From the NCBI RefSeq assembly GCF_000455245.1, contig NZ_HG005165.1, positions 651,828 through 689,642 on the forward strand: a stretch of DNA of 37,815 bases, given 5' to 3'. Both the position numbers and the translations under genes were made by a program. Positions within the stretch are counted from its first letter, which is position 1. Every line of letters begins with the position of its first letter. Below the pieces are notes generated by a model that saw nothing but the letters and a program-made list of their open reading frames with translations, did not search any database and was not told the origin of the DNA. Source of the DNA: Nesterenkonia massiliensis. GTDB lineage: Bacteria; Actinomycetota; Actinomycetes; Actinomycetales; Micrococcaceae. Shown in pieces: positions 13,930-15,885 of this stretch.

Positions 13930-14727
13930 ATGCCCAGTACCCTTTCCAGTGCTCCGTGGAATCCGGAGCGTTACCTGAGATTTGCTTCAGAGCGCACCCA
14001 GCCCTTCATCGACCTGCTCACTCACGTCCGCGCATACAACCCGCGGCGCATTGTGGATCTGGGCTGCGGACCAGGCAACGGCATGCCGGTGCTGCGGGAG
14101 TTCTGGCCGGAAGCGGAGATTATCGGCATCGACTCCAGCCCGGAGATGCTCCAGCGGGCTCAGGAATCCACCTCCGCCGACCCTCGCATCAGCTACCGGC
14201 AAGCAGATATCAGGGATCTTAAGCTGGATGAGCCGGCAGATCTCATAGTCTCCAACGCTGCTCTGCAGTGGATCCCCGAGCACCGAGATCTGCTGCCGCA
14301 GATTCAGGCCAATGTGGCCCCCGGCGGCACACTGGCAGTACAGGTCCCCGGCAACTTCTCCGCCCCCAGCCACCGGCTGCTAGCTGAACTTGCCGCGTCC
14401 GAACCATACCGGCAGTTCATCGACCCACACACCATGCTGCAACCCACCGCAGAGGTCAGCGACTATATGCACGACGTCGCGGCAGAGGGCTGGGAGGTCG
14501 AAGGCTGGGAGACCCGGTACCACCACATACTCCATGGCGAAGATCCAGTCTTCACGTGGATTTCCTCTGCAGCTGCCCGCCCGGTGCTGGAGGCGCTTCC
14601 AGAAGGACCCCGGGAAGAGTTCACCCGCCAGTACAAAGCCGCACTGCGCAGGGCATATCCCAAGACGAAGCTAGGCACCATCCTGAGCTTCCGGCGCTTG
14701 TTCTTCATTGCCCGTCATCAGGGCTAA
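13930..14727 (+). CDS. tam: Trans-aconitate 2-methyltransferase-like SAM-dependent methyltransferase
   Basis: A 265-residue class I methyltransferase, the usual Tam length. It opens with WNPERYLRFASERTQPF, the Tam-type N-terminus. The SAM site VDLGCGPGNGMPVL lies near 40, the acidic ribose-binding IGIDSSPEML near 63, and the post-site IVSNAALQWIPEH near 100 contains the NAALQW sequence typical of the family. The product would methylate trans-aconitate, an inhibitor of aconitase, in the cytoplasm. ATG 13930 is chosen because of the TAGAAT box seven bases before it; GTG 13903 preceded by GGGAG would add nine residues. It stands alone between the HEPN island and a small winged-helix gene. Confidence 0.85.
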   Translation: MPSTLSSAPWNPERYLRFASERTQPFIDLLTHVRAYNPRRIVDLGCGPGNGMPVLREFWPEAEIIGIDSSPEMLQRAQESTSADPRISYRQADIRDLKLDEPADLIVSNAALQWIPEHRDLLPQIQANVAPGGTLAVQVPGNFSAPSHRLLAELAASEPYRQFIDPHTMLQPTAEVSDYMHDVAAEGWEVEGWETRYHHILHGEDPVFTWISSAAARPVLEALPEGPREEFTRQYKAALRRAYPKTKLGTILSFRRLFFIARHQG

Positions 14728-14813
14728 ATCAGTGATTTATTGCCGCTGATTCCGGTATGTGAGAGATAAGACATCCTCGGTTTACATTCCTGACAATAGG
14801 CAGAAACGCAACC

Positions 14814-14853
14814 GCCCTACCCTGAAGCTCAAGCATGACAGGGAGGGTAGGGC
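14814..14853 (+). promoter_or_regulatory. Perfect 10-bp hairpin enclosing the ribosome binding site of the winged-helix gene
   Basis: GCCCTACCCT (14814-14823) and AGGGTAGGGC (14844-14853) are exact reverse complements with a 20-base loop. The second arm ends at the base before the ATG at 14854 and, with the last loop bases, carries the only purine-rich ribosome binding sequence. If transcribed, the site would be paired and translation reduced until the stem opens. It may instead be a DNA operator for the encoded winged-helix protein. Confidence 0.55.
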
Positions 14854-15177
14854 ATGGCAGAACCTGTACCAGAGGTCATCGAGGATGACCAGTACCTGCG
14901 CGTCCCAATGCCCGCTGGCGAGGTGGAGATCATCGGCAACACCGTGCATCTGCCCGGCCACGGCCCCGTAGCGCTGGCACCGGGTCCGATGTCTGTCATG
15001 CGCGCCCTGACCAAAGCCCAGGGCGCGGTCATCTCACGGGAGGACCTGCTCTGGCTGCTGCCGCAATGCGGTTCTTCGCACGGCCTGGAAATGTGGGTTT
15101 CCCGACTGAGGCAGGCCCTGCCCGACTCAGCCGTAGTCCAAACCGTGGTCAAGCGGGGCTATCGGCTGGCCCTCTGA
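14854..15177 (+). CDS. Solitary winged-helix DNA-binding protein (OmpR/PhoB C-terminal type)
   Basis: A 107-residue protein made of a short N-terminal strand region (EVEIIGNTVHLPGHGPVALA) and a trans_reg_C winged helix at about 40-105: a MSVMRALTKAQGAVISREDL helix, a recognition helix near EMWVSRLRQAL, and the wing VVQTVVKRGYRLAL. No receiver domain is present. The sequence resembles the winged-helix tail that many actinobacteria fuse to uroporphyrinogen-III synthase, but here it stands free. GGGAGGG lies before the ATG. An exact 10-bp hairpin covers that site. Its target could be its own upstream repeat. Confidence 0.72.
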   Translation: MAEPVPEVIEDDQYLRVPMPAGEVEIIGNTVHLPGHGPVALAPGPMSVMRALTKAQGAVISREDLLWLLPQCGSSHGLEMWVSRLRQALPDSAVVQTVVKRGYRLAL

Positions 15178-15182
15178 GCCGA

Positions 15183-15317
15183 TTACCGGGCGCCGCCGTT
15201 GCTTGTCTTCGACTCCTCCTCGGTGAGCACTTGGGCATCCACCGTGGTGATCTCCTCGGTGACCGTGTGCTCGACCTGGATCCGGGGGTTCATCTCGATG
15301 AAGACATGCTGGGGAAG
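15183..15317 (-). pseudogene. pyc: Pyruvate carboxylase fragment (biotin carboxylase domain)
   Basis: On the minus strand a 44-codon open segment reads HVFIEMNPRIQVEHTVTEEI then TTVD, the highly conserved biotin carboxylase motif of pyruvate/acyl-CoA carboxylases (catalytic Glu in FIEMNPR, then RIQVEHTVTE). It is bounded by stops at 15318-15320 and 15183-15185 and loses similarity after TTVD. The remaining roughly 1100 residues are absent. It abuts the malate synthase remnant, so two unrelated central-metabolism genes have been joined by deletion. Confidence 0.65.
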
Positions 15318-15324
15318 TTACAGC

Positions 15325-15885
15325 TCAGCTACGGGAGACCAGAATCTCGGCACTGGAGGCCTCACCGTCTTCGTCGTCGTCCATATCCGGCTCACCTGGG
15401 CCGAGGTGAATCGCGCGGATTATGCCGTCGGGCAGTCCCAGCAGCTGCTCAGCGCGAATGAAGAGCTCCCGCCAGATCTGCAGCTCTTCCTCGGTCTCGG
15501 TGCCCGGCAGGGAGACGAAGGGGGCACGACCCTCAGCCAGCAGCCGGTGTGCATTGCGGTGGATATGCAGACCGAAGTCCACGATTCCGGCAGAGACCGG
15601 AGTCCCGTTGCTCATCACCTTGTCCTGGGTGCGGCAGAGCCGGCGGGGGCTGATGAAGCTGCTCGGCGGCTCCACCAGATGCTGGTCCACCATCAGCGAC
15701 CAGTTGCAGCTTGTGCTCTTGGACGCGGTGCCACCGCCCAGTGCCTGCACCCGGAGGCCGAACTCCCCGTGCAGTACTGCAAGGAACTCCAGAGTCTCAG
15801 GGGTGAAAAGCTCTGCCTGGCGTGGAACCTCCGGCCCGGCGAGCGTGACCGTCTGCTGTGAGGTCTCCTCAGTGGTGATAGTCAT
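15325..15885 (-). pseudogene. aceB: Internally deleted malate synthase gene
   Basis: The 186-codon frame begins like malate synthase A (LAGPEVPRQAELFTPETLEF, LAVLHGEF), then jumps to a segment matching the middle of the enzyme (GTPVSAGIVDFGLHIHRNAH, LLAEGRAPFVSLPGTETEEE, LGLPDGIIRAIHL) and ends without the C-terminal half. About 200 residues are missing inside and about 250 at the end, and conserved residues have drifted (the PYFYLPK segment has become PFVSLPG). AAGGAG still precedes the ATG and the frame is free of stops, so a product might still be made, but it cannot carry out the glyoxylate-cycle reaction. Family assignment is from motif memory. Confidence 0.65.

Follow-up and report, generated by a model that had tools for sequence, protein, structure and literature searches.

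A perfect inverted repeat that abuts the start codon of a small, apparently free-standing DNA-binding protein gene could be an RNA switch, a self-operator or neither. We address this question for a gene of Nesterenkonia massiliensis that lies in a 37,815-nucleotide stretch of DNA, referred to here as the window. The reading that we favor, with moderate confidence, is that the gene encodes a GlnR-controlled, sensor-less copy of the DNA-binding domain of NnaR with a feedback role, and that the hairpin is not regulatory. This reading builds on a computed promoter array and -10 element, their sharing with nirB, the presence of GlnR, the monophyly of the solitary proteins and purifying selection, to which it adds putative GlnR binding, a predicted start site and a presumed feedback.

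The solitary gene and its relatives

The 107-residue open reading frame (14854-15177, + strand) matches PF00486 (Trans_reg_C) at 35.4 bits against a cut-off of 26.2, and neither the Pfam search nor the predicted structure revealed a receiver domain. On the NCBIfam model for uroporphyrinogen-III synthase fusions it covers the C-terminal positions 276-373 of 381 with 89 bits, below the cut-off of 273, and the N-terminal HemD domain is absent. AlphaFold2 (five models, 25 aligned sequences as input) gave a best model with a mean pLDDT of 84.9 (60.8-72.6 in the other four), which consists of three strands, three helices and a C-terminal hairpin; the last helix (residues 75-88) is the recognition helix. 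Foldseek searches of the PDB with this model returned the PhoB effector domain 1gxq as best match (E 1.7e-5), comparison with the GlnR DNA-binding domain 8hig gave E 5e-4, and no PDB sequence matched the protein at E 0.01. In alignments, the recognition helix H-A/G-LEMW-V/I-SRLR is common to the Nesterenkonia fusions and the solitary proteins, and a HemD fusion encoded on contig C2 of this genome ends in a paralogous domain. The original prediction was therefore right to describe a receiver-less winged helix resembling the tail of a HemD fusion (the Pfam and NCBIfam matches and the missing receiver agree); its statement that this domain stands alone holds for the gene, which is separate, but not for the domain, which has that paralogue. 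The best reading, on balance and as judged from sequence, is that the product is the NnaR DNA-binding domain as a protein in its own right; no description of a solitary NnaR domain was found among the titles and abstract openings listed by the literature searches.

The gene is present in 21 of 30 Nesterenkonia genomes, and its eight closest named orthologues (71-76% identity) all belong to this genus. In a tree of 56 domains, which omits L034, L120 and L013 and has 109 columns and many unresolved forks, the 20 solitary sequences of Nesterenkonia that it includes fall into one group with support of 100/94, adjoining fusions of Nesterenkonia and two other genera. Two pairs from genomes without detected nirB have dN/dS values of 0.06 and 0.08, and the other six pairs examined range from 0.02 to 0.30; purifying selection in genomes without detected nirB or fusion suggests that the solitary gene has a role of its own, perhaps self-control. 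Two of the 21 copies look broken, that of G004 by an in-frame TAG and that of G011 by a split of about 1.6 kb, so the gene is dispensable somewhere. In G011 (L121 5098-7064; G011:C1:2081097-2083063) the split falls after about residue 66 and the promoter array is intact; the insert is perhaps a mobile element. Downstream of the gene in the window, the minus strand at 15181-15885 carries a pyruvate-carboxylase-like peptide, FIEMNPRIQVEHTVTEE, between stop codons (PDB matches E 1e-7), and a 186-residue malate synthase fragment (MS_TIM-barrel positions 12-84 of 248); these remnants, which separate the solitary gene from trmB, look like decayed genes.

The promoter array and its candidate binders

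Merging 7 duplicate pairs among 27 orthologue loci and the window left 21 distinct upstream sequences. Their alignment shows, upstream of the hairpin, a conserved block of five GNNAN units spaced 11 bp apart (14759-14807). On the + strand of the window these are GTGAG (repeat 1, 14759-14763), the least conserved; GACAT (repeat 2, 14770-14774), in which the G and A of GNNA are invariant in 21/21; TTTAC (repeat 3, 14781-14785), in which the first base is T or G and the A is invariant; GACAA (repeat 4, 14792-14796); and GAAAC (repeat 5, 14803-14807), which ends 10 nt ahead of a -10 element. The array columns invariant in all 21 promoters are G at 3, 14, 36 and 47 and A at 17, 28, 39 and 50, in steps of 11. 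The -10 element, TACCCT (TAnnnT; 14818-14823, + strand), makes up the last six bases of the repeat's left arm; its T, A and final T are found in 21/21 promoters, with a G next. The gap between array and -10 is 10 nt in 20 of the 21 solitary promoters and 9 nt in L010, where the start is uncertain, the frame looks shifted near the start and the genome is 62% complete. Sites were located with a pattern that demands the hexamer and units 4-5; every one of the 21 promoters satisfied it and none was dropped, and a MAFFT alignment of the 21 promoters shows the array and -10 without that pattern. A consensus sigma-70 promoter with a spacer of 16-18 was not found in 14600-15330. The promoter would accordingly be made up of four to five head-to-tail 11-bp GNNAN units, 10 nt and TAnnnT, with no consensus -35. 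Of the 11 promoters in the window's clade, 7 (the window's own, at 14750-14754, and those of L005-L009 and L011) have the pentamer TTCCG 4 nt ahead of repeat 1.

A sequence-only model of the array (53 positions), built from the 21 sites, was run over the 30 genomes, scoring 150 of about 770-1270 first-look candidates in each. Every one of the 21 genomes that have the gene gave its best match at the solitary promoter, which was a training site in 20 of them but not in G011. Twelve further matches covering at least 39 of the 53 positions all lie just upstream of nirB, and none was a training site; they represent 12 of the 19 nirB genomes, at 12-21 bits. In the window's genome the model matches the solitary promoter and, weakly, the nirB promoter (12.2 bits, E 0.44). 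The model search gave no nirB match in the other 7 of 19 nirB genomes (G007, G015, G016, G017, G020, G021, and G027), and a matrix scan finds the nirB site in six of these seven, all but G015. That scan covers 13 of the 19 nirB promoters, all but those of G004, G011, G015, G022, G023, and G024, five of which have a model match; the nirB site is its top match in all 13 nirB regions, with scores of 12.5-32.7 in 12 and 5.4 in L136, and second-best sites score at most 4.8 in 125.9 kb. In 12 of the 13 nirB promoters, exactly 10 nt separate the fifth unit from TAnnnT; L085 has none. Genomes with neither the solitary gene nor nirB (G002, G010, G013, G025, and G028) gave no model match.

Beyond the 21 solitary promoters, the model has 34 matches at E≤1, including the 12 at nirB. 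Of the others, three that span 36-37 positions lie in coding sequence (in G014 and G023 within listed open reading frames, in G017 at the end of an atpC-like frame by reading, below the cut-off for listing), ten of about 20 positions fall in ribosomal-protein-like coding sequence by reading, and nine short matches complete the set. The genome-wide model found no full-length target besides the solitary and nirB promoters, and a role beyond the gene's own promoter and nirB is hypothetical. Over four array units, the two amtB loci of the window's genome score at most 11.1 and 8.9, versus 19.8 at the solitary promoter; a search with a one-mismatch pattern returned the solitary site and one other, and the control also gave one.

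In the window's genome, nirB, the first gene of the nitrite reductase operon, is followed by a cobA-type methylase (PF00590) and the HemD-winged helix gene, with a PF01226 formate/nitrite transporter beyond; the relative L083 has divergent genes for a Rieske protein and a CbiX protein. The same 19 of 30 genomes that have nirB have a long-frame paralogue, which we take as the fusion from the size of its frame, 387-554 aa in all of the 19 but G027 (198 aa); for the window's genome alone, a family search showed the HemD part as well. A second, weaker five-unit array points away from nirB and toward the divergent genes in L084 (4300, -), L082 (13819, +), and L140 (1848, -), with matrix scores of 2.6-4.8.

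Passages of PMC6277429 and PMC11162112 describe a HemD fusion of the NnaR type as controlling nitrite assimilation and give its motif as a palindrome, CTCAC and GTGAG separated by about 15-18 nt. Repeat 1 of the nirB array doubles as the right half of this palindrome, and the exact left half CTCAC is found in 7 of 13 nirB promoters versus none of the 21 solitary promoters. Parts of PMC10704036 give the GlnR box as gTnAc-n6-GaAAc, with an irreplaceable A at position 4 of the unit, and report that GlnR of Streptomyces coelicolor activates nnaR and acts together with NnaR at nirB. The solitary promoter has the GlnR-box layout of 5-base units and 6-base spacers. A GlnR gene was found in 30/30 genomes, and that of the window's genome is 58% identical to S. 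coelicolor GlnR over positions 2-219 of 220; a literature search for Nesterenkonia with GlnR found nothing. Because the array is of the nirB kind and matches tandem GlnR boxes, we infer that GlnR would occupy it and tie the solitary gene to nitrogen supply. As the recognition helix is common to the fusion, the solitary protein should read similar units, and it probably binds them at its own promoter, as feedback, and at nirB where present; GlnR would be at least as likely a binder of the array as the solitary protein. In six genomes (G003, G006, G009, G014, G018, and G026) the solitary gene is accompanied by strong arrays, and searches for nirB (E≤1e-100) and for the fusion (E≤1e-10) gave no match. 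It is therefore unlikely that NnaR is a required binder there, or that growth on nitrate or nitrite is the solitary gene's sole role; the candidate binders remaining in these six genomes are GlnR and the solitary protein, with MtrA as an outsider.

A more specific history is tentative: the DNA-binding half may have been duplicated or split off once in Nesterenkonia and kept the nirB-type array, and may now serve as a small modulator in a feedback loop, either competing with GlnR and NnaR or binding alongside them; in species without nirB it would persist as a self-regulated module with further targets. Somewhat doubtful, too, is a pure self-operator, in which the solitary protein alone would bind the five repeats and repress its own promoter without GlnR. 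Direct repeats are bound head-to-tail by OmpR-type domains, the array extends to about -23, where a repressor would fit as well as an activator, it is strongest at the gene's own promoter in 21/21 genomes with the gene, and it persists in the six genomes without detected nirB and fusion. However, the units resemble GlnR boxes, GlnR is present in every genome, and four genomes without the solitary gene have the array at nirB (G001, G008, and G029 by the model and the matrix scan, G021 by the matrix scan). The self-operator that had been proposed for the hairpin thus keeps a conserved operator-like array, but one of five 11-bp direct repeats upstream of the hairpin rather than the hairpin itself. 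That MtrA rather than GlnR is the main protein on the array is unlikely: MtrA is encoded in this genome (NF040689, 385 bits against a cut-off of 300), and in Streptomyces it binds GlnR boxes according to parts of PMC6988585, but it is a general regulator and nothing ties it to the solitary promoter more than GlnR.

The inverted repeat at the start codon

The repeat consists of a left arm, GCCCTACCCT (14814-14823, + strand), and a right arm, AGGGTAGGGC (14844-14853, + strand), which abuts the ATG at 14854. It is, exactly as had been claimed, perfect over 10 bp and ends at the start codon, and its loop is 20 nt long. The ribosome-binding sequence AGGGAGG, as read from the sequence (14840-14846, + strand), had been placed inside the repeat; three of its bases are in the right arm, but the first four lie in the loop. 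None of 300 dinucleotide shuffles of the 40-nt stretch that begins 4 nt ahead of the -10 and runs to the ATG contained a 10-bp repeat. Across the whole 37.8-kb window there are 21 10-mer pairs of this type, with loops of 3-40, in 7 places, and in 20 shuffled versions the number of pairs was 0 to 11 (mean about 3.6); since shuffled windows also yield such pairs, a 10-bp repeat somewhere in 37.8 kb is expected, and its placement at the start codon is an after-the-fact observation.

Pairing conserved through compensating changes was not seen in relatives, as both arms are absent from all 20 other distinct Nesterenkonia orthologues. With the conserved -10 in the left arm, we infer a transcription start between the arms, at about 14831 (14829-14833, + strand) given the usual -10 spacing; the left arm, as the -10 region, would then lie outside the mRNA from this promoter. 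A transcript that includes both arms has a predicted fold of -26.9 kcal/mol (z -2.2; equalled or bettered by 6 of 200 shuffles), the leader from the predicted start folds no better than shuffles (z -0.2), nor do the leaders of other species (z -1.8 to 1.5), and Rfam gave no match up to E 1.

Inverted repeats with sequences unlike the window's are found in L028 (11 bp, shuffle p 0.01), L033 (14 bp, 0/300), L034 (8 bp, p 0.047), and L037 (11 bp, p 0.007), beginning at the first base of the -10 or at most 9 nt after it. Near-loopless palindromes (loops 0-1 nt) occur in L006 (p 0.03) and L011 (p 0.037); the palindromes of L005 and L009 have p 0.07 and 0.06, and the remaining 12 of 20 leaders range from 0.07 (L010) to 1. 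The matching test over two lengths gave p≤0.05 in 1 of 12 nirB promoters and in 2.7 and 4% of random window segments (150 per length, two lengths). Because the sequences are related, the excess of repeats near the -10 is suggestive only; it could reflect repeated template-switch mutation. In the clade with the longest other repeats, 78.6% of cells pair, a two-sided change is seen in 1 of 16 pairs and broken pairs are the sole departure in 11, and the covariation score was equalled by 41 of 500 shuffles.

The action of the repeat might be confined to RNA that reads through from the methyltransferase gene upstream: it would mask the ribosome-binding sequence in such transcripts and leave those from the gene's own promoter open. 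The left arm lies upstream of the predicted start and the right arm over part of the ribosome-binding sequence, no terminator-like site was found on the + strand in 14600-15330, and repeats of other sequence recur near the -10 in other species; however, the right arms of the long repeats in those species end short of the ribosome-binding sequence, the palindromes have loops of 0-1 nt, and support comes from a single species, which makes this explanation very improbable. An RNA switch, whose hairpin would hide the ribosome-binding sequence until a signal opened it, is rejected as the least credible explanation: the perfect pairing, the fold of a transcript with both arms, the repeats and palindromes elsewhere and the paired cells with one two-sided change in the longest-repeat clade are outweighed by arms that are not conserved and overlap the -10, an unremarkable leader, the lack of an Rfam match and changes that mostly break pairs. 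Most likely, the hairpin reflects a chance pairing of promoter with ribosome-binding sequence in a single species, and the 10-bp repeat is probably promoter sequence and not a regulatory hairpin or switch; a striking species-specific hairpin can be disguised promoter sequence.

Comparison with known systems

The solitary protein differs from a two-component response regulator in having no receiver domain. Short frames in other genera of the family (L117, L118, L119, and L120; 119, 121, 159, and 202 aa) likewise encode a receiver-less, related winged helix and are too short for a full fusion; unlike the solitary gene, they have different neighbors by eye and no array (best scores -2.9 or lower), and L117-L119 group with other fusions in the tree (L120 left out). 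The solitary promoter is like actinobacterial GlnR-box promoters, as passages of PMC10704036 describe them, in its five-base units spaced 11 bp apart with a fixed A at position 4, and unlike them in the four to five strictly phased units found at the solitary gene and nirB, where GlnR binding is putative. A further likeness is to NnaR (for example MSMEG_0432 and SCO2958), an orphan regulator with HemD and winged-helix domains: the solitary protein has the winged helix and recognition helix of the fusion, and its promoter array is common to the nirB operon, which here encodes an NnaR-like fusion after nirB and cobA. Unlike NnaR, the solitary protein lacks the HemD domain and is encoded by a separate gene beside trmB (PF02390), and its promoter lacks the left CTCAC half of the palindrome. 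According to part of PMC11162112, what the HemD half does is still an open question; a natural HemD-less NnaR domain, retained without detected nirB, offers a direct comparison with and without the putative sensor. The solitary gene can be placed as a variant within the known GlnR/NnaR nitrogen-control family, with a probable feedback role.
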